Of a stretch of 64,000 nt of DNA, positions 47,645 to 59,343 are shown one piece after another. Position 1 is the first letter of the stretch. Each line of letters starts with the position of its first letter. The DNA is from Sandaracinus amylolyticus (GTDB lineage: Bacteria; Myxococcota_A; Polyangia; Polyangiales; Sandaracinaceae): the NCBI RefSeq assembly GCF_000737325.1, contig NZ_CP011125.1, positions 5,022,001-5,086,000 on the forward strand. Reading direction: 5' to 3'. The position numbers were made by a program, and so were the translations under genes. The notes beneath the pieces were generated by a model. That model was not told where the DNA came from, made no database searches, and worked only from the letters and a program-made list of their open reading frames with translations.

Positions 47645-48646
47645 ATGGACCAGCTCAGCGCCCACCTCGATCGTGCGTGGGACCTCGTCTCGCGCGGAGA
47701 CTTCTCGGGGGCGATGCGCTCCGCCGAGAAGTCGCTCGAGATCGACCCGGACTCGCCCGAGGTGCACAACCTCATGGGCTACATCCGCGCGCAGGAGGGC
47801 CACGCCGAGGAGGCGCTCGAGCACTACGAGCGCGCGATCGAGCTCGACGAGAGCTTCGTCGAGGCGATGCTCAACGCGGCCGAGGTGTGCATCCACCCGC
47901 TGCAGGACTGGGACGGCGCGATCGCGCGCATCGAGTCCGCGCTCGACTGGATCGAGGATCCCGAGGAGCAGGCCGACGCGATGCTCCTCAAGATCGACGC
48001 GCTGCTCGGCAAGGGCGATCGCGCGGGCGCGGCCGTCGTGGTGAACGCGCTGCCCGAAGGGCCCTTCGAGAGCGCGGGGATCGCGTTCTCGATCGGGCGC
48101 GCGCGGTTCGAGACCGGCGACGTGCGCGGCGCCGAGCCGTGGCTGCGTCGTGCGATCGAGAAGGAGACGCGCCACGCGGAGGCGCACTACTACCTCGGCC
48201 TCGTGCTGCAGGAGCGCAGCGACGCGCGCGGCGCGGCCCTCGCGTTCCTGCACTCGCGGCACGCGGAGGTGCGCGGTGGCGCGCCGGCGCCGATGGTGAG
48301 CTCCGAGACGTTCGAGCGGCGCGTGCAGTCGGCGATCGGTCGCTTGCGCGAGAACGTCGCGCGCGTGATCGAGGGCGCGCTGGTGATCGTCGGTGACGTG
48401 CCGGGCGCCGAGGTGGTCGCCGAGGGCGTGGACCCGCGCATCCCGGTGCTGCTCGACGATCTGGGCGCGGAGGACGAGCCGCCGCGCGCTGGGCGTGTGT
48501 TCGTGTACCAGCGCAACGTGGAGCGCATCGCCGCGGGGCCGATGGAGCTCGAAGAGGAGATCGCGCGCTCGATCACCGAAGAGGTCGAGCACGTGTTCCC
48601 CGAGGTCGCGGGCGCGCCGGCGACCGAGAGCGAGATCCAGAACTAG
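47645..48646 (+). CDS. TPR protein with a degenerate minimal-zincin C terminus
   Basis: 333 residues. Residues 1-215 hold TPR units (AWDLVSRGDFSGAMRSAEKSL, VHNLMGYIRAQEGHAEEALEHYERAIEL, AHYYLGLVLQERSDARGAALAF). The last 110 residues resemble the small zincin family PF06262: a strand-helix region (ALVIVGDVPGAEVV), a FVYQRNVERIA-type segment, then ARSITEEVEHVF. The helix should read HExxH, but here EEVEH replaces HEVGH, so the first zinc ligand is lost and catalysis is unlikely. The TPR half may bring in a partner while the zincin half binds without cutting. The stop overlaps the next gene by 4 bp, convergently. Confidence 0.75.
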   Translation: MDQLSAHLDRAWDLVSRGDFSGAMRSAEKSLEIDPDSPEVHNLMGYIRAQEGHAEEALEHYERAIELDESFVEAMLNAAEVCIHPLQDWDGAIARIESALDWIEDPEEQADAMLLKIDALLGKGDRAGAAVVVNALPEGPFESAGIAFSIGRARFETGDVRGAEPWLRRAIEKETRHAEAHYYLGLVLQERSDARGAALAFLHSRHAEVRGGAPAPMVSSETFERRVQSAIGRLRENVARVIEGALVIVGDVPGAEVVAEGVDPRIPVLLDDLGAEDEPPRAGRVFVYQRNVERIAAGPMELEEEIARSITEEVEHVFPEVAGAPATESEIQN

Positions 48647-49395
48647 ATCACGAGCGCCCCGGGATCGCCGCCGAGGCCGGCCCACGTGCGCGCGAGATCG
48701 TCCGGCGCGGGCGCGACGAGCTCGAGCGATCCGCCGTGCGCGACGTCGGGCAGCACGAGCCGCGCGCAGTGCAGCATCGGACGACGCGCGCCGATCACGC
48801 GGCCGTCGTCGAGCACGACGCGCGGCGCGCCGCCGTAGGTCACGTCACCGAGGATCGGATGGCCCGCCGCCGCGCAGTGGACGCGCAGCTGGTGCGTGCG
48901 GCCGGTCTCGGGGAAGAGCGCGAGCGCGGCGTAGCCGCTCGCGATTCCGCGCCGCTCGTAGCGCGAGCTCGCGTCCTGCGCGCGCTCACCGGTCTCGCTT
49001 TCCTGGAGCGCGATGCGCCGCGTCGCGTCACGCGGATCGATCGCGATGCCCCACGTCCAGCGGCCGCGCTCCTCGGGCACCCCGCCGACCAGCGCGAGGT
49101 AGGTGCGCTCGTAGCGCCCTTCGCGACGCGCCTCGAGCAGCGCGTCGATCGCGCGATCGGTGCGCGCGAACGTGACGAGCCCGGTCACGTCGCGATCGAG
49201 GCGCGAGCTCGGATGCATCTTCGGCGCGCCGGGATCGAGCGAGCGCGCGATCGACGTGAGCGTGATCGTGCTCGCGTCGGGCGCCGTGGTCGGCAGCGCG
49301 GGCGGCTTCACCAGCACGAGCAGGTGCGCGTCGCGATGCGCGATCCGCACCTCGGGGGGCGGCGCGGGGCGGCGATCACGCCCGCGGGGTCGCAT
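48643..49395 (-). CDS. RluA-family RNA pseudouridine synthase
   Basis: 250 residues. Motifs are VLVKPPALPT near residue 25, the catalytic Asp in SSRLDRDVTGLVTFAR, ALFPETGRTHQLRVHCA and the final HCARLVLPDVAHGG. No S4 domain precedes it. The target uridine in rRNA or tRNA is unknown. ATG 49395 lies inside the 3' end of the preceding PEP-utilising gene (20-bp overlap), so the two are translationally coupled. This is a second RluA-type enzyme beside the fused one at 23.1 kb. Confidence 0.85.
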   Translation of the reverse strand: MRPRGRDRRPAPPPEVRIAHRDAHLLVLVKPPALPTTAPDASTITLTSIARSLDPGAPKMHPSSRLDRDVTGLVTFARTDRAIDALLEARREGRYERTYLALVGGVPEERGRWTWGIAIDPRDATRRIALQESETGERAQDASSRYERRGIASGYAALALFPETGRTHQLRVHCAAAGHPILGDVTYGGAPRVVLDDGRVIGARRPMLHCARLVLPDVAHGGSLELVAPAPDDLARTWAGLGGDPGALVI

Positions 49396-52105
49396 CGCGG
49401 GCGTGCTCCTCGCGATCGCGCGTCGCGTGCGCGCGCTCGACGATGCGGACCGTGCCCGCGTCTCCGTCGACCTCGACGCGATCACCGGTGCGGATCACGC
49501 GCGTGCCGTGCCGCACGTTGACGACCGCGGGCACGCCGAACTCGCGCGCGACCACGCTCGCGTGCGAGAGCGGCCCACCGAGGTCGGTCACGATCGCCGC
49601 CGCGGCGAGGAAGAGCGGCGTCCAGCCCACGTCGGCCTGCTGCACCACGAGCACCTCGCCGGGCGCGAGCGCGGTCGCGTCGCTCGCGGTCTCGACCACG
49701 CGCGCGGTGCCGATCACGCGGCCCGTCGACGCGCCGAGCCCGCGCAGCGCGCCGTCCGGCAGCGCTTCGGCTTCGACGGGCGGCGGGAACCCGACGAACG
49801 TGTCGGGCGGCGGTGGCAGCGCACGATCTCGCTCGTACTGCAGACGCCGGCGCCGGATGAGCACCGAGACCGGCCCCACGTCGCCCTTGAGCAGCGCGTG
49901 CAGCTCGTCGACGGTCAGGAAGAACCCGCCGTCGGGCCCGCAGCCGGGCTCCATCGCGGCGAGCCGCCGCGACGCGTCGAGCACGACCTCGCGATAGAGC
50001 CCGAGCACCGTCACGACGTGACCGCGGAGGTGCTCGCGCAGCCGCATGAAGTCCTGCACGAGCGTGAGCAGCTTGCGCACCGCGAGCGCGCCGCCCGAGA
50101 GGCGCACCGGCAGCGGCAAGAGGCCCTCGAGCTCCGCCTGGGCGCGCTCGCGCACTTCGAGCTGGCGCCGCTGCACCTCCTCGGGGCCTTCGTCGTGCTC
50201 GCTCATCAGGTGCAAGCGCAGCGTCGTGAAGGGCAGCGTCGGATCCTCGCGCCAGCGCGGCTCCGCGATCTCCGCCTCGCGCGCGCCCCGTCCGCCGTAG
50301 CGCGCGAAGAAGTCGAGCAGCGCGCGGCGCGTGGGGCCCTCGGGGATCGACGCGACACGGAGCTCGGCGGGCGGCGTGCGCAGGATGTGATCGCGGGCGC
50401 GCAGATCGCCCCGCGCGATGCGCGCGATGCGATAGAGCGCGAGCCCGGGCGCGGCGCTGTCGACGTCGTCGAGGCCGGTGAGCAGCTCGCGCATGAGCGA
50501 GTCCGCGCGCGGCTCGTCCGCGACGGCGCTCACGAGCGCGCGCAGCGCGACGACGCACGCGAGCAGGTTCCCGTACACGTTGAGCAGCACCTCGCCGGTC
50601 GGATCGAGCAGGCGCTCGACCTCTCCGAGCACGCGGTGCAGCGCGGTCGCGCTCAGCACGCGGAAGTCGATCGCGTCGATGCGCGCGCGCTCCGCCTCGA
50701 ACCACTTCTCGAACTGCGCGACGCGCTCGCCGAGCCGCGCGTTCTCGCGCACGTAGCGCGACGCGGTCATCGGAAGGCGCGCGAGGAACGCGGCGGAACC
50801 GCGGCGCTCCACGTCGTGCTCGAGGCGATCGATCTCGCCACCGCCGCCGAGCGAGAGGAGCACGCGCGGGCGCAGGCCGGGCACCTGCGACGCGATCGCG
50901 GTGAACTCGCTCATGTTGAGGTAGATGCGGCCGCGGAAGTTGCCGACGAGCTCGGCGTCCTTCGGCACGCTGCACCCGAGCGCGCCGAACGCGCGGCGGA
51001 ACCCGCGATCGCTGAAGCCGCTCAGCACCGACCACGTGAACGGCGTCGCGACCCCGGGCAGCGCCTCGCCGACGTTCACGTTCGACCAGACGATGCGCGC
51101 GCGATCGGCGCGGCGCGCACGTCGCGAGCTCGCCCGGCGCGGCGGCGTCACGATCGCGGTCACCGGCCGCGCCTGCAGCACGTAGACGTTGCGCCCGACG
51201 ACCGCCCACTCGATGTCGCGCGCGTCGCCGAAGTGATCCTCGATGCGCACGCCGAGCTCGATCAGCCGATCGAGCACGTCGTCCGAGAGCGACTCCTGCG
51301 CGCGTGCCTCGGCGGGCACGTCCTCCTCGATCACGCCGCGCTCGTCGTCCCACTTGATCGCGCGCGCCTTGTCGCCGATCACGCGATCGCGCACCCAGCC
51401 GCTCGCCTTGTCGACGCGGTACGTGTCGGGCGAGACGCTGCCGTCGACGACGGTCTTGCCGAGGCCGAGCGACGCGTTGATCACCATCTCGCCGGGATCC
51501 GCGGAGAGCGGGTTCACCGTGAAGAGCACACCCGCGACGTCGGCGGGCACGAGCGCCTGCAGCACCACGCCCATTCCGAGCCCGGCCTCCGCGCTCGCGC
51601 TTCCGAGCGCGCGCAGGTAGCCGAGCACGCGCGGATCGAACGAGCTCGCCCACACCGCGCGCAGCGCGTCGTCGAGCGCGTCCTCGTGCTCCACGCCGAG
51701 CACGGTGTCGTGGAGGCCCGCGGCGGAGCGCGCCTGCTCGTCCTCTCGGAGCGACGACGAGCGCACCGCGATGGCGCGCGCGCCTTCCTTGCGCAGCGTC
51801 GCGAACGCGGCGTGGACGTCCGCGGCGATCGCACGCGTGAGCGGCGCGCGGCGCACGCGCGCGGCGATGTCCGCGAGGCGCTCGGGCGTGACGTCGCGCG
51901 AGGGCGCGGCGAGCAGCGCGGCAGGTTGCTCGTCGGGCGCGAGCGTCGCGCGCAAGAAGTCGTCGCAGACCTCGGCCGCGACCGCGAACGCTGCGGGCAC
52001 CGGGAAGCCGGCGCGCGCGAGCGCCGCGAGGTTCTTCGCCTTGCCGCCGAACGCCGGTGTGCGGCGCGGGACGAGCGATTCGATCCGTCGGACGTGCGGC
52101 CCCAT
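49376..52105 (-). CDS. PEP-utilising enzyme resembling PEP synthase / rifamycin phosphotransferase
   Basis: 909 residues. The N-terminal ATP-grasp domain (PPDK-N) shows GGKAKNLAALARAGFPVP, AVRSSSLREDE, ADVAGVLFTVNPLSAD and the DIEWAVVGRNVYVLQARPV ending. A long middle region with SNVNVGEALPGVATPFTW follows. The C-terminal swivelling domain carries the phospho-His His848 in GGPLSHASVVAREFGVP. The order ATP-binding, middle, His-domain is that of rifamycin phosphotransferases and PEP synthase-like proteins. No PEP-binding TIM barrel is present, so it is not a standard PEP synthase. The substrate is unknown and antibiotic resistance cannot be claimed. TACACT lies 12 bases before the ATG. Confidence 0.85.
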   Translation of the reverse strand: MGPHVRRIESLVPRRTPAFGGKAKNLAALARAGFPVPAAFAVAAEVCDDFLRATLAPDEQPAALLAAPSRDVTPERLADIAARVRRAPLTRAIAADVHAAFATLRKEGARAIAVRSSSLREDEQARSAAGLHDTVLGVEHEDALDDALRAVWASSFDPRVLGYLRALGSASAEAGLGMGVVLQALVPADVAGVLFTVNPLSADPGEMVINASLGLGKTVVDGSVSPDTYRVDKASGWVRDRVIGDKARAIKWDDERGVIEEDVPAEARAQESLSDDVLDRLIELGVRIEDHFGDARDIEWAVVGRNVYVLQARPVTAIVTPPRRASSRRARRADRARIVWSNVNVGEALPGVATPFTWSVLSGFSDRGFRRAFGALGCSVPKDAELVGNFRGRIYLNMSEFTAIASQVPGLRPRVLLSLGGGGEIDRLEHDVERRGSAAFLARLPMTASRYVRENARLGERVAQFEKWFEAERARIDAIDFRVLSATALHRVLGEVERLLDPTGEVLLNVYGNLLACVVALRALVSAVADEPRADSLMRELLTGLDDVDSAAPGLALYRIARIARGDLRARDHILRTPPAELRVASIPEGPTRRALLDFFARYGGRGAREAEIAEPRWREDPTLPFTTLRLHLMSEHDEGPEEVQRRQLEVRERAQAELEGLLPLPVRLSGGALAVRKLLTLVQDFMRLREHLRGHVVTVLGLYREVVLDASRRLAAMEPGCGPDGGFFLTVDELHALLKGDVGPVSVLIRRRRLQYERDRALPPPPDTFVGFPPPVEAEALPDGALRGLGASTGRVIGTARVVETASDATALAPGEVLVVQQADVGWTPLFLAAAAIVTDLGGPLSHASVVAREFGVPAVVNVRHGTRVIRTGDRVEVDGDAGTVRIVERAHATRDREEHARDATPRA

Positions 52106-54564: not shown

Positions 54565-55638
54565 CTACGGTGCGGTCGCGCGCTCGACGAGCCAGACGAG
54601 CGCGAGCAGCGCGATCGCGATGGATCCGCCGCGCACGATCCACGTGCGATAGCCCGGCTTGCCCGCGAGCCACGCGAGCGGTGCGAGCATCACCGCGACG
54701 AACGCGAGCTGCGCGAGCTCGATGCCGACGTTGAACGCGAGCAACGAGAGCACGCGCGCCTGCGCAGGAAGGCCGAGCTCCGCGAGCACGCCGGAGAACC
54801 CGAAGCCGTGGACGAGGCCGAAGCCGAGCGCGAGCCACGGCATCGAGCGGCGCTCGTCGGGGCGCCACACGTTGAGGAGCGCGACCACCGCGATCGAACC
54901 GGCGATCACGCTCTCGACGAGCCTCGAAGGCAGCACGATCACGCCGAGCGCCGCAGCGATCAGCGTGACGCTGTGCCCGAGCGTGAACGCGGTGACGACG
55001 ATCGCGACGTCGCGCAGCGCGACCCGCATCCCTTCGCGCCGCGCGAGCCCGCCCGCGGTGAGCACCAGCGAGAGCAAGAAGAGCAGATGGTCGTAGCCGG
55101 TGACGAGGTGCAGCACGCCTTCGACGAGGAAGCGACCCAGCAGCGACGGGATCGACGGGGGCTCGCCGAGCGCGACCTCTTGGCGTCCGGCGCGGAGCAC
55201 GCGCGCGTCGGAGTCGTCGGCGAAGCGGATGCGCACGAACGCTTCGTGCTGCGCGTCGGTCGGGAAGATCGTGTCGTCGCGCAGGACGAGATCACCCGGA
55301 GGGCACGCGTAGTCGATCGACAGCGAGAGCCGCGGCGGGCCATCCTCGCCCTCGACTTCGCTCGGTGCGCCGGCGTGCGCGCTGCACGCGCTCGTTCCGT
55401 CGCCGATCGTGATCCCACGCGCGAGCAGCGCGCCCAGGTCGTCACCGCGCGCGAGCACCGCCGACGCGGGCGCGTCCTCGCCGAGCCCGAGCTCCATCGC
55501 GGCGTCGACCACCTCGAGCTCCACGTCGATCGACGCGCCCTCGCTCGTGCGCTCGACCACGACGTACTTCGCGGATCCGCGATGGGCGTGCGCCGTCGAC
55601 GCGCACGCGAGGATTCCCAGGACGACGACCCGCCACAT
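54565..55638 (-). CDS. HupE/UreJ-family membrane protein
   Basis: 357 residues. A signal peptide (LACASTAHAH) precedes an exported N-terminal domain of about 160 residues with Cys pair CSAHAG/YACPPG. Then comes the HupE/UreJ membrane domain: HLVTGYDHLLFLLSLV, FTLGHSVTLIAAALG and GLVHGFGFSGVL contain the His and Asp residues typical for the family. Relatives are proposed nickel or metal permeases, but many myxobacterial members have no nickel context and their role is unknown. TACCCT sits seven bases before the ATG. Structured repeat copy B begins 18 nt after the stop. Confidence 0.8.
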   Translation of the reverse strand: MWRVVVLGILACASTAHAHRGSAKYVVVERTSEGASIDVELEVVDAAMELGLGEDAPASAVLARGDDLGALLARGITIGDGTSACSAHAGAPSEVEGEDGPPRLSLSIDYACPPGDLVLRDDTIFPTDAQHEAFVRIRFADDSDARVLRAGRQEVALGEPPSIPSLLGRFLVEGVLHLVTGYDHLLFLLSLVLTAGGLARREGMRVALRDVAIVVTAFTLGHSVTLIAAALGVIVLPSRLVESVIAGSIAVVALLNVWRPDERRSMPWLALGFGLVHGFGFSGVLAELGLPAQARVLSLLAFNVGIELAQLAFVAVMLAPLAWLAGKPGYRTWIVRGGSIAIALLALVWLVERATAP

Positions 55639-55653: not shown

Positions 55654-56241
55654 TCACACGGCGCGTCGATCGAGCTCGTTGCTCATCACCGCGATCGCGT
55701 CGTCCGCGTGGACGCTCACCGGACCGATCGAGATCGGCGCGCAGGGCTCGATCGCGGCGCGCGCCGCGTCGTCGAGGCCGAGGTGATCCCCGACGAAGAT
55801 CGCGAGATCGTCGGTCGCGATCCCTGCGGTCCGCACGTCGGCGCCGTGCTGCTCGAGCACGTAGCGCGGCACACCTCCGAGATCCGCGAGCACCACCTCG
55901 AGCCCGCCGTCCGCGATCGACACGCCGTTGCGCAGCGCGGTGAAGCCCGGTCCTCGCGCGTCGTGCGCGAGCGCTTTCTGGATCACCGTCGCGACGTAGC
56001 GCTCGCCCGGTCGCACGTAGCGCGCGACGCGCCCGTCGATGCGCACCACGCGCGGCGCACGACGCCCTCCGAGCAGCACGAGATCGACGATCGTGTCGCG
56101 CCGCACGCCGTTCGAGACGAGCAGCGCGGCGCGCACGCAGCGCACGAGCACGTCGAGCCGCCCGCTCGATCCCGGGAGATCGATCAGCGAGAACTCGGGC
56201 GACGCCGTCGCGGTGCGCCCGATCACGACCCAGCGCCGCAC
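55654..56241 (-). CDS. TrmY-like SPOUT RNA methyltransferase (DUF358)
   Basis: 195 residues. The sequence follows the archaeal TrmY (tRNA pseudouridine-54 N1-methyltransferase) pattern throughout: TASPEFSLIDLPGSSGRLDVL, RAALLVSNGVRRDTIVDLVLLGG, YVRPGERYVATVIQKAL, the SAM-knot segment AIFVGDHLGLDD and ISIGPVSVHADDAIAVMSNELDR. All knot residues appear intact. The family is mainly archaeal, so this is either a transferred gene or a bacterial branch with another substrate. The start is GTG 56241. The HupE-like gene begins 15 bp downstream, and the DUF1552 gene ends 13 bp upstream, so it sits inside an operon. Confidence 0.82.
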   Translation of the reverse strand: MRRWVVIGRTATASPEFSLIDLPGSSGRLDVLVRCVRAALLVSNGVRRDTIVDLVLLGGRRAPRVVRIDGRVARYVRPGERYVATVIQKALAHDARGPGFTALRNGVSIADGGLEVVLADLGGVPRYVLEQHGADVRTAGIATDDLAIFVGDHLGLDDAARAAIEPCAPISIGPVSVHADDAIAVMSNELDRRAV

Positions 56242-56254
56242 GGCGCGTGGTCTA

Positions 56255-57556
56255 TCAGATCAGGAGGCCCTCGAGCCCGCCGCTGCCGTGCCCCGAGTAC
56301 CCGTACGTGTCGACCGGCACGCCGACCGCCTGCGCGATCGACACGAGAAGCTTCGAGTGCGCCTCGTTCTCGCCGCCGTGCCCACCGCGGTAGTCGATGA
56401 AGCGATTGCCGCGCAGCCGCACGCCCGCGCCGCCCGCGACGACGAACGGCACGCGCTTGTGATCGTGCGCGTTCGAGTCGCCGAGCTCGCTGCACAACAT
56501 CACGACCGTCGAGTCGAGCAGCGTGCCCTCGCCGTCGGGCGTGGTCGCGAGCTTCTCGATCAGCTCTGCGAAGCGCTCCGCGAACCAGCGCTTCAGCGCG
56601 ACGAACTGCCGCGCAGTGTCGCTGTCCGCGTTGCCGTAGTGCGACGCGTCGTGGTTGCCGAGCGTCGCCGTCGTGTCGCGCACGTGCGTGGGGCTCACCG
56701 GATGCGACCACATGATCGACGCGACGCGCGTGATCCCGCAGCCGAGCGAGAGCACCGCGAGGTCCTGCTGCAGGCGCCCGACGGTCAGGAAGTTGTCTTC
56801 CTTGTGATAGGTCTTCGGGTAGTAGTCGGTCTCGACGTTGCGATAGCCGCCCGCGTTGAACGCGACGTCGCTGCAGCTGCCGCCCACCGGCGCCATCAGC
56901 CTTCGCTCGAGCTCGCGCAGCGACTCGGTGTGCACGTCGAGCTTCGTGCGCTCCACCGCGCCGAGCCGCGCGCGCAGCGCGGTCAGGTCACCGCTGATCG
57001 CGTCGAGCACGCTGCGGCGACGACGGATGCGCAGCTCCTCCGCGCTCGTGTCGGTCATCTCGCGCCCGCCGAACAAGCGCGAGAACGCGTTGAGCGGATC
57101 GTCGTCGGGCTTCACCTCGGTGCCCATCAGGCGCGAGAAGCTGCCGCTGCCGTTCTCGAAGTTCGCGCCCACGCCGAGGTGCACGCTCGGGTGCGGCACG
57201 CCCTCGCGCAGCGTCTGGCCGAGGAACACGTCGAGCGACGTCGGGTCGGTGCCGGTGAGCACCTTCGCGCAGCCGCCCTCGTGCGTCGGCCCGCCCGCGT
57301 ACATGTCGAGCCCGTCGAGGAACGTGAGGTGCTGCCGCACGCGCTCGAGCGGCGCGCTCATCTCCGGCAGCGTGAACGTGCTGCTCCCCGAGCTGCCGCG
57401 CGGGTGCCAGCGATCCGGGATGCAGCCGTCGGGGATGTAGACGAAGAGCGCCCTGCCCTCGCCCGCCGCGCGCGCGCTGCGCGCGAACGTGTGGATCCCG
57501 ATCGGCGCGAGCGCCGCGCCCGCCGCGAGCCCCTTCAGGAACGAACGACGCTTCAT
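56255..57556 (-). CDS. DUF1552 Tat-exported protein
   Basis: 433 residues. A twin-Arg signal KRRSFLKGLAAGAALAP starts the protein, so it is exported folded. The rest matches DUF1552: ALFVYIPDGCIPDRWHP, MYAGGPTHEGGCAKVLTG, ASIMWSHPVSPTHVRDTT, VVMLCSELGDSNAHDHKRVPFV and GGHGGENEAHSKLLVSIAQA. Related proteins are found beside DUF1587/1592 cytochromes in planctomycetes and myxobacteria; their chemistry is unknown, though the fold is alkaline-phosphatase-like. ATG 57556 overlaps the TGA of the upstream gene by one base; a GTG at 57559, better spaced from AGGAGG, may be the real start. Confidence 0.85.
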   Translation of the reverse strand: MKRRSFLKGLAAGAALAPIGIHTFARSARAAGEGRALFVYIPDGCIPDRWHPRGSSGSSTFTLPEMSAPLERVRQHLTFLDGLDMYAGGPTHEGGCAKVLTGTDPTSLDVFLGQTLREGVPHPSVHLGVGANFENGSGSFSRLMGTEVKPDDDPLNAFSRLFGGREMTDTSAEELRIRRRRSVLDAISGDLTALRARLGAVERTKLDVHTESLRELERRLMAPVGGSCSDVAFNAGGYRNVETDYYPKTYHKEDNFLTVGRLQQDLAVLSLGCGITRVASIMWSHPVSPTHVRDTTATLGNHDASHYGNADSDTARQFVALKRWFAERFAELIEKLATTPDGEGTLLDSTVVMLCSELGDSNAHDHKRVPFVVAGGAGVRLRGNRFIDYRGGHGGENEAHSKLLVSIAQAVGVPVDTYGYSGHGSGGLEGLLI

Positions 57557-59277
57557 CACGGCGCCACCTCCTCTGCCGCACGACGGATCCGGAACGAGGG
57601 CTGCGTCACGACCGCGACCATCAGATCGCGCAGGTCACCTCCGCTCTCCTCGAAGCGCGTCGCGAGCGCGCGCACCGAGCACGCATCGCCTGCGTCGCGC
57701 TCGATCGTGCCGCGCGCCCAGCGCCACCACTGGCGCGCCATGCAATCGCGCGCGGTGTCGCTCTCCGCGATCTGCGCCGCGAGCTCTTGCGGGCCCGCGA
57801 GCGCGAGGCGCGCGCCGTCGCTCAGCGCCTCGACGCCGATCAGCTCGCCGCTCGTGTCGATCGCGAGGCCGTTCTCCTGCTCGCGATACGCGCCGACCGC
57901 GTCGAAGCGCTCGAAGGGGAAGCCCACTCCGTCGATGAATTGGTGGCACGCCGAGCACACCGGATCGTCGGTGTGGCGGCGGAAGCGCTCGCGCGTCGTG
58001 AGCGTGGGATCGAGCCCCGGCGGCGTGGTGTCGGCGTCGGCGGGAGGCGGCGGGAGATCCTGGCAGAGCAGGCGATCGCGCACGAAGAGACCGCGCCGGA
58101 TCGGCGAGCTCTCGTTCGAGTGCGCATGGCTCGCCATGACGCTGCCCATCACCAGCAGACCACCGACACGCTCGGGCGGCGCGCTCACACGATCGAACGC
58201 CGCGCTCCCCCCCGCGCCGAGCCCGTAGTAGGTGCGCAGGTTCGCGTCGACCATCACGTAGTCGGCGCTGAAGAGCTCGCTGAACCGACCCGTGCGCTCG
58301 AACATCACGTGGCGCACGAACGCGCGCTCCTCCGCGAGCATCGACTCGCGCACCGGGCCGGTGAACGCGGGGAAGAGCGTCGCGTCGCGGTTCGTGCCGA
58401 GCAGGCGCGTGGTGCCGAGCCAGCGCGACACGAACGCGGCGACCGCGTCCTCGCTGCGCGGATCGTCGAGCATGCGGCGCGCCTCGCGCTCGATGATCGC
58501 GGGGTCGCGCAGCGAGTCGCTCTCCGCGAGCGCGAAGAGCGTCTCGTCCGGCATCGTGCCCCAGAAGAGATAGGAGAGCGCGGTCGCGATCTCCCACGAG
58601 GTGAGCGCGAACGTTCCGTCCGCCTGCGCCTCACCGACCTCGCTGCGATAGAGGAACGAAGGCGACGCGAGCATCGCCTCCATCGCGAGCCGCGCGCCCA
58701 CGCGCGCGTCACCGACGATCAGATCGCTCGCGAAGAGCGCGACGTAGCGATCCACTTCGTCGCTCGCGAGCGGACGGCGGAACGCGCGGCGACCGAACGC
58801 CTCGACGAGCTGGCGCTGGCAGTCGCTGCTCGAGAGGTCGCACGCCGCGAAGCGCGCCGGGTCCACGGTCGCGACGAGCGTCTCGGCCGCGCTCGCGTAC
58901 GCGTCCGCGTGGCGACCGGTGACGAGCTGCGCGTTCGACTCGTTGTCGTAGCCGCGCACGGAGGTCTCGACCGGAAACGAGTCGACGTCGGGCGCCGCGA
59001 TGCCGAGCAGATCGGCGACGGTCGCGCGGTACTCGTCGCGCGTCAGCAAGCGCAGCGAGCGTCGGCCCGGCGCCTCGCCCTCGCACACGATCGGCTCACC
59101 CGGCTCGACAGGATCGCTCGGGTCGATCGGGTTGCCACCGGGATCGCGCGGACCGTCGCCTGGGCCTGGGCCGACGCCGTCGGGGCCGGCGGCTGCCTCG
59201 CCGAGCAGGCCGGTGCACGCCGTCGCGAAGGCGAGCACGAGCGCGGAGAGCAGAGACGACGGTGAGCGGAAGCGCAT
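57556..59277 (-). CDS. DUF1592/DUF1588 haem-binding lipoprotein-like exported protein
   Basis: 573 residues. A signal with Cys near residue 21 (AFATACTG) is followed by a Gly/Pro/Asp linker. Domains in order: DUF1587-type RRLLTRDEYRATVADLLG, DUF1595 (FGRRAFRRPL), DUF1592 (FLYRSEVGEAQADGTFALTSWEIATALSYLFWG), DUF1588 with a c-type haem site CSACHQFIDGVGFPFERFD, and a DUF1585 tail. The pair with DUF1552 is a known gene neighbourhood. It is probably an extracytoplasmic redox system on an unknown polymer. GGAGG precedes ATG 59277 at ideal spacing. It heads the minus-strand run that continues to 53281. Confidence 0.88.
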   Translation of the reverse strand: MRFRSPSSLLSALVLAFATACTGLLGEAAAGPDGVGPGPGDGPRDPGGNPIDPSDPVEPGEPIVCEGEAPGRRSLRLLTRDEYRATVADLLGIAAPDVDSFPVETSVRGYDNESNAQLVTGRHADAYASAAETLVATVDPARFAACDLSSSDCQRQLVEAFGRRAFRRPLASDEVDRYVALFASDLIVGDARVGARLAMEAMLASPSFLYRSEVGEAQADGTFALTSWEIATALSYLFWGTMPDETLFALAESDSLRDPAIIEREARRMLDDPRSEDAVAAFVSRWLGTTRLLGTNRDATLFPAFTGPVRESMLAEERAFVRHVMFERTGRFSELFSADYVMVDANLRTYYGLGAGGSAAFDRVSAPPERVGGLLVMGSVMASHAHSNESSPIRRGLFVRDRLLCQDLPPPPADADTTPPGLDPTLTTRERFRRHTDDPVCSACHQFIDGVGFPFERFDAVGAYREQENGLAIDTSGELIGVEALSDGARLALAGPQELAAQIAESDTARDCMARQWWRWARGTIERDAGDACSVRALATRFEESGGDLRDLMVAVVTQPSFRIRRAAEEVAP

Positions 59278-59343
59278 GCGGTCCTCCGTGCGGTACGTGG
59301 CGGGACGAGGTCGGACCGGGTCACGCGAAGCACACGAAATTGT

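Follow-up and report, generated by a model that had tools for sequence, protein, structure and literature searches.

Which RNA would a methyltransferase of archaeal type modify in a bacterium, and which enzyme would supply its substrate? In tRNA, Pus10 makes the pseudouridine at position 54 (Psi54) that is the substrate of TrmY, and TrmFO makes m5U54. Methylation by TrmY of the Psi54 made by Pus10, as well as its activity on an isolated T-arm, are described in PMC7912444 and PMC9508554. The question is raised here by a gene of Sandaracinus amylolyticus, located on the minus strand at positions 55654–56241 of the 64,000-nucleotide stretch of DNA that was analysed (the window), and encoding a protein of 195 amino acids from a GTG start codon. 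The genome, a single contig of 10,327,335 bases, has only one copy of the gene, whose GC content (72.8%, compared with 72.3% in the window) is like that of its surroundings.

The protein matched the Pfam family PF04013 (Methyltrn_RNA_2) with 140.2 bits (cut-off 25.5) along residues 1–193, corresponding to profile positions 1–196 of 198 and thus to nearly the full length of the family. PF04013 was the sole family at E ≤ 0.001, and no Pfam match to Nep1 (COG1756) or to RlmH (PF02590) was obtained. Against the TrmY equivalog of NCBIfam (NF002560), the score of 157.2 bits fell under the cut-off of 183. Sequence searches of the PDB recovered AF_1056 (6.3e-28), MJ1640 (4.1e-21), and Vibrio VCA1059 (1.3e-6), and comparison of its AlphaFold model (pLDDT 84.2, pTM 0.86) with known structures placed the same three proteins first, AF_1056 (2qmm) with Z 28.5, MJ1640 (3aia) with Z 26.4, and VCA1059 with Z 23.0; the next family after DUF358 was Nep1, with Z 14.6. 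Judged by its sequence and by this predicted model, the protein is a DUF358 SPOUT methyltransferase, TrmY-like and filed apart from TrmY proper, so that the initial annotation of the locus as a TrmY-like (DUF358, COG1901) gene was borne out, also by the structural overlay that it had proposed. The coding sequence bears the mark of purifying selection, with a pairwise dN/dS of 0.16 against the counterpart in a genome of the same genus (G192).

It had also been stated that the full archaeal TrmY pattern is preserved in this protein, which held for the two knot segments, GDHLG (residues 151–155, positions 55777–55791, minus strand) and SIGPVSVHAD (residues 171–180, positions 55702–55731, minus strand), both present in the alignment. 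G151, D152, and G155 of the former were invariant among 20 aligned sequences, and by analogy with the SPOUT fold, this segment is predicted to form part of the SAM site. At least 90% conservation in both bacterial and archaeal rows was found for G27, R28, D30, S43, R47, P78, E80, G106, D152, and D191, among others. The statement needs qualification at other positions. At residue 181 (codon at 55699–55701, minus strand), diagnostic of the bacterial clade, all 34 bacterial rows have Asp, which none of the 97 archaeal ones has (H 68, Q 17, S 7, A 4, V 1), and R37 and R77 were present in all 34 bacterial rows compared with less than 10% of the archaeal rows. In addition, the Sandaracinus protein carries H44N and D79G, at positions where archaea have H in 95 and D in 97 of the 97 rows; N44 and G79 were found in no other of the 34 bacterial rows, and the same-genus protein of G192, which is outside these rows, has both. 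The changes at these five positions may reflect an altered substrate pocket or partner. A missing Cys after HADH was also considered as a sign of the bacterial clade and dropped, as the archaeal column itself is variable (C 73, A 13, T 10, S 1 in 97 rows).

Profile searches detected PF04013 in 21 of the 240 genomes of the class of S. amylolyticus, all of them within its own order, in 2 of 187 genomes from a sample of the phylum, both from this order too, and in 124 of 148 genomes of one archaeal phylum. A pattern scan across 84,980 species, each represented by a single genome, was biased to the motifs of the clade of Sandaracinus and bound to miss Vibrio-type proteins; it revealed 147 relatives, the best 80 of which were kept and corresponded to 33 bacterial and 47 archaeal loci. 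These 33 bacterial loci were titled Myxococcota, Deltaproteobacteria, Proteobacteria, or genera of these. Carriers are patchy among Myxococcota, and a single order has been seen with the gene. A phage or plasmid origin was rejected within the limits of the collections and methods used, since the protein showed no match at E 1e-5 among phages and plasmids, nor any match by pattern among viral contigs.

For the phylogenetic analysis, an input of 132 rows, assembled without two truncated archaeal loci, was reduced to 101 rows sharing less than 85% identity. All the 32 bacterial rows other than Vibrio grouped as one clade with support 100/98, and this clade was nested among archaeal rows when the tree was rooted on the single and very long branch of Vibrio, the one row that represents the VCA1059 group. 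Removal of nine long-branched rows (92 rows left) kept the 31 bacterial rows together with support 100/100. The sister group of the clade, by contrast, changed without the long branches and had a support of 64–70 in this second tree, for which reason Methanothrix, first suggested as the donor by identity, was discarded. Similar TrmY genes are present on two contigs (L070 and L074) that belong to the same Methanosaeta MAG (PtaB.Bin018), which may be a mixture of strains. Neither was the VCA1059 group the closest relative, as archaeal proteins were nearer by at least 14 orders of magnitude in E-value, and nearer in the tree as well.

Because archaeal TrmY is nearest to the single clade of the bacterial carriers, transfer of the gene from archaea is likely, its direction being read from the distribution and from the long-branch root. 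The simplest reading is that the gene passed once from archaea to bacteria and was then lost or exchanged further, and a few bacterial members of COG1901 were regarded as transfers in PMC1829167. The initial annotation would have been contradicted by a large bacterial family known for long and with a definite function outside tRNA, and no such family emerged: apart from the gammaproteobacterial VCA1059 type, whole-genome carriers were confined to one order of Myxococcota, and no assigned function for bacterial carriers was found in the open-access literature searched.

As for the surroundings of the gene, it lies on the minus strand together with three incidental neighbours, the two adjoining ones tightly spaced. 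A gene for a HupE/UreJ_2 membrane protein (54565–55638, minus strand) follows it after 15 bases, and a DUF1552 (HXXSHH) gene (56255–57559, minus strand), whose product has a Tat-like signal of 21.1 bits, under the cut-off of 22.7 of the Tat model, precedes it by 13 bases; further upstream comes a gene for a DUF1587/1595/1592/1588/1585 (PSD/PSCyt) protein (57556–59298, minus strand). This DUF1552/HupE operon had been pointed out in the initial annotation, and despite the tight spacing, we rejected it as a functional clue, as it was not conserved outside Sandaracinus: among the 20 other loci of the order compared, HupE adjoined the TrmY-like gene only in L040, from the same genus. There, two gene calls separate the DUF1552 and TrmY-like genes, one of them kinase-like and clustering with the kinase gene of the window. 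In L035, homologues of the DUF1552 and DUF1592-type genes are located several genes away. No RNA-modification family appeared among the 25 most frequent of the 87 Pfam families found in 88 neighbour ORFs, scanned out of 121 after leaving out 10 from four loci with TruC-like genes as well as 23 more, most of which were the ORFs picked farthest out at their locus. The leading families in these neighbours, whose gene calls are rough in such GC-rich DNA, were kinases, oxidoreductases, and GST domains, and GreA/GreB and a general methyltransferase family appeared twice each. The telling neighbours are those in other genomes, TruC-like and DTW genes.

Patchy distribution and unlike neighbours in most carriers would fit a drifted enzyme or a hitch-hiker, namely a methyltransferase acting on another target, or a protein with a non-methylating RNA-binding role, without any fixed partner. 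The clade-specific D181, R37, and R77 and the H44N and D79G changes of Sandaracinus point in the same direction, and bacterial COG1901 proteins are tabulated as methylases of unknown function in PMC5041015. However, purifying selection on the gene and the tight clusters in which it is found in some relatives speak against a passive passenger, and we regard this explanation as unlikely, with a small but appreciable chance of being correct.

If the protein were a TrmY in the strict sense, its substrate should be provided by Pus10. A profile search of 27 genomes, S. amylolyticus included (7 non-carriers and all but one of the 21 carriers of the class), detected Pus10 in none of them, whereas the four archaeal genomes used as controls all matched, three of them over the cut-off. 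TrmFO, on the other hand, was found in all 27 genomes, in 26 of them over the cut-off, the match in G233 being split in two pieces. On account of both results, the textbook m1Psi54 role is unlikely for this TrmY-like protein, and the doubt about a role at tRNA position 54 expressed in the initial annotation was probably right, in that the enzyme is likely to have a target different from the Psi54 of archaea. We know of no bacterial Psi54 synthase. Yet a synthase other than Pus10 could isomerise U54 before TrmFO acts on it, so that m1Psi54 would be formed in some tRNAs, or the equivalent in another T-loop RNA. The closest characterised relatives are indeed TrmY enzymes active on the isolated T-arm (PMC7912444), and Pyrococci, according to PMC2584109, carry COG1901 despite their expected m5U54, a precedent for coexistence. 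Against this canonical target stand the patterns of Pus10 and TrmFO themselves and the score under the TrmY equivalog cut-off, and we consider it improbable.

TruC makes Psi65 in the tRNA of gammaproteobacteria, and TapT makes acp3U47 in tRNA. A search for pseudouridine synthases in 27 genomes showed that in G219 one of them immediately adjoins the TrmY-like gene, and among the 33 bacterial loci of the pattern scan, a TruC-like synthase gene was found directly downstream of the TrmY-like gene in four, L048, L050, L051 (a contig of G219, the same as L032), and L060. In L048, L050, and L060, the gene order is a class-I methyltransferase (PF13679), the TrmY-like protein, the TruC-like synthase, a DTW protein (DTW1), and a second DTW protein (DTW2), whose gene in L048 runs off the end of the contig. 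With start codons chosen among in-frame candidates, the TrmY-like and TruC-like genes overlap by 4 bases in the four loci, the overlaps between the first methyltransferase and TrmY-like genes, between TrmY-like and TruC-like genes, and between TruC-like and DTW1 genes are each of 4 bases (ATGA or GTGA) in L048, L050, and L060, and DTW1 and DTW2 overlap by 4 bases in L050, L060, and L051, a second, downstream start being possible for DTW2 in L048 and L050. In L051, the overlapping TrmY-like and TruC-like genes are followed by 2,023 bases and then by the overlapping DTW pair. Co-transcription of the genes in these clusters is presumed from their arrangement. The tree places L048, L050, and L051 near one another, and L060 branches elsewhere with modest support. 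The other 29 bacterial loci had different neighbours or lay on short contigs.

The two operon synthases that were tested had TruC (NF008321) as their best NCBIfam model, with 183.5 and 188.7 bits; as the cut-off of 328 was not reached, specificity for Psi65 is not established. The HRLDR motif, which we take to be the catalytic motif of pseudouridine synthases of this kind, was kept in the four TruC-like operon proteins. Two DTW1 proteins (152.3 and 152.7 bits) and one DTW2 protein (167 bits) exceeded the gathering score of PF03942 (33.7), and DTW1 retained the Asp and Trp of its motif in six of six aligned sequences. The conserved class-I methyltransferase that opens the cluster (L048:5312–6001, L050:5318–6001, and L060:5333–5998) bears an LPCCHEK motif, and its L048 version showed no match up to E 1 among solved structures.

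The window itself contains a gene for an RluA-family pseudouridine synthase (48643–49485, minus strand), 6 kb downstream of the TrmY-like gene. It was not adopted as a partner, as the protein is 36% identical over the alignment to a TruC-like operon synthase and scores better on the general RluA model than on TruC (NCBIfam). This synthase is of a divergent type, and L040 (G192) has a 92% identical homologue about as far from its own TrmY-like gene. No tRNA or Rfam genes were detected in the 64-kb window. Among 11 loci with partner genes, one tRNA-Pro was called, in L246, inside an ORF of 551 amino acids; this call is probably false, because the counterpart of the ORF in L244 is a methylmalonyl-CoA mutase.

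Beyond the clusters, DTW proteins were found in 187 of the 240 genomes of the class, S. amylolyticus having two. In family f2, which comprises 56 genomes of the sample by hand count and which we call Polyangiaceae-type because its named loci carry such titles, a TruC-like subgroup with scores above 320 bits was represented in 8 of the 12 carriers of the TrmY-like gene versus 4 of the 44 non-carriers (Fisher 1.3e-4, uncorrected for kinship, and with queries taken from Labilithrix-like genomes, a choice that by itself raises the scores of their kin). Two further members of this subgroup were found outside f2, in G046 and G086. The TruC-like gene of S. amylolyticus is located at 75,458–76,102 of the contig, 5 Mb away from the TrmY-like gene. 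Within the family of this species, TruC-like genes occur both with and without a TrmY-like one (without it in G216 and G184, for example). A TruC-like gene beside a DTW gene and away from TrmY was observed in four carriers (L244 to L247) and in two non-carriers (L251, from G193, and L252, from G086), the remaining 14 of the 20 stretches centred on TruC-like genes having no DTW gene beside them. Since the pair exists in G193 and G086 without the TrmY-like gene, it may be an older unit that the latter joined in some lineages.

Neighbourhood of this kind has a precedent in archaea, where clustering of COG1901 and Pus10 genes in several genomes was noted before TrmY was tested (PMC2584109). In the available text of the analysis of DTW neighbourhoods by Burroughs and Aravind (PMC4275035), which describes links with tRNA genes, the word pseudouridine is absent and no precedent for pairing with TruC was found. 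Likewise, neither this gene cluster nor a TrmY from myxobacteria was found described in the open-access literature searched.

As the best explanation, held tentatively and with a chance slightly below even, we propose that the TrmY-like enzyme N1-methylates a pseudouridine made by a bacterial synthase, with the tRNA T-arm as the candidate site. The gene, most likely of archaeal origin, would have been kept by selection in some genomes of the order Polyangiales, and its product would methylate N1 of an RNA pseudouridine with SAM as the donor, as its archaeal relatives do, this substrate coming from a bacterial synthase and not being the Psi54 made by Pus10. The T-arm would be the best candidate route, with the TruC-like enzyme as supplier of the pseudouridine, because in relatives the TrmY-like gene directly precedes genes for a TruC-like synthase and DTW acp-transferase-like proteins. 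In support of this proposal are the family and fold of the protein, the single bacterial clade, Pus10 in none and TrmFO in all of the 27 genomes, the 4-base overlaps, the co-occurrence in f2, and the dN/dS of 0.16. N1-methylation of pseudouridine, tRNA as the substrate, the TruC-like supplier, the co-transcription, and the operation of the same route in Sandaracinus are what we infer. Against the T-arm and TruC route, the cluster was found in 4 of 33 bacterial loci, three of the four being close relatives, the TruC-like gene of Sandaracinus is 5 Mb away, and TruC–DTW pairs exist without the TrmY-like gene; the H44N and D79G changes, at positions conserved in the family, also weigh against the proposal.

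The content of the cluster admits another explanation. The Nep1–Tsr3 route gives m1acp3Psi in eukaryotic 18S rRNA, and the three chemistries of this route are encoded in the cluster, so the TruC-like, TrmY-like, and DTW enzymes could act on one and the same nucleotide to yield m1acp3Psi in a bacterial RNA. In such a pathway, the TruC-like enzyme would make the pseudouridine, the TrmY-like enzyme would methylate its N1, and a DTW enzyme would add the acp group at N3. The Asp and Trp kept in DTW1 agree with it, and so does the relationship of DTW proteins with Tsr3, which adds acp to m1Psi (PMC7026641). However, two DTW genes and an extra methyltransferase fit several separate tRNA sites equally well, and the bacterial DTW enzymes described in the available portions of PMC7026641, PMC6895100, PMC10962704, and PMC12588516 act on U in tRNA, with acp added to U47 (PMC7026641, PMC6895100) and a TapT homologue confirmed in the tRNA map of P. 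aeruginosa (PMC10962704). We find this explanation quite improbable, and we see an equally slight prospect that some bacteria of the order Polyangiales run a pathway to m1acp3Psi, or at least to m1Psi, from one overlapping cluster, with the activities dispersed in Sandaracinus.

A different kind of substrate was considered from the distribution of RlmH, a SPOUT methyltransferase responsible for m3Psi1915 of 23S rRNA. RlmH, widespread in bacteria, was undetected in 20 of the 56 genomes of f2, over 11 genera. Within this family, it was undetected in 11 of 12 carriers of the TrmY-like gene versus 9 of 44 non-carriers (Fisher 1.1e-5), and by genus, carriers were found in 7 of 11 genera without RlmH versus 1 of 18 genera with it (p 1.4e-3), these counts having been made by hand, with 16 unlisted genomes without RlmH taken as outside the order, as the list is sorted by kinship. 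The TrmY-like protein could then replace RlmH and methylate the same pseudouridine of helix 69 at another nitrogen. Yet this cannot be its general role, because all nine carriers of the sample outside f2 keep RlmH, including S. amylolyticus, whose sole PF02590 match lies away from the TrmY-like locus. In addition, nine genomes of f2 without the TrmY-like gene also lack a detectable RlmH, and the genera without RlmH may be a single lineage, so kinship may explain the link. The absence of RlmH and the presence of the TrmY-like gene in f2 may be a matter of plain co-inheritance in one lineage, and we consider replacement very unlikely.

If our preferred reading is true, the formation of m1Psi in bacteria with the help of a bacterial pseudouridine synthase would constitute a new pathway. 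It would bear on the old puzzle of the role of COG1901 in organisms with m5U54, posed by Pyrococci (PMC2584109) and by Vibrio (PMC12588516), and now by these myxobacteria. In the tRNA map of Vibrio cholerae, m5U54 made by TrmA and Psi65 made by TruC are reported, with no mention of TrmY, VCA1059, or methylpseudouridine in the available main text (PMC12588516). The packing of the TrmY-like gene with bacterial RNA-modifying genes in a few relatives makes the possible new route testable, and the Labilithrix-like cluster names its concrete partners, a pseudouridine synthase, two methyltransferases, and two acp-transferase-like proteins.

Compared with known systems, the Sandaracinus protein resembles RlmH as a SPOUT enzyme, RlmH being one that acts on a bacterial pseudouridine, but it belongs to another family, and RlmH has its own locus in S. 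amylolyticus. With Nep1/EMG1, the N1-methyltransferase of a pseudouridine in small-subunit rRNA, it shares a related SPOUT fold (Z 14.6 or lower) and presumably the chemistry, whereas their identity is only 10–14%, with no Pfam match at E ≤ 0.001. The gammaproteobacterial DUF358 protein VCA1059 of Vibrio has the same fold and family, and it is also found in a bacterium; nevertheless, it shows 21% identity in the structural alignment, an E-value of 1.3e-6, and a very long, separate branch. Finally, Sandaracinus differs from archaea with TrmY in the absence of a detected Pus10, the presence of TrmFO, the score under the equivalog cut-off, and residues D181, R37, and R77, while its protein is like archaeal TrmY in the full-length match to PF04013, in the SPOUT fold (Z 28.5 and 26.4), and in the GDHxG and SxGPxSxHAD segments.
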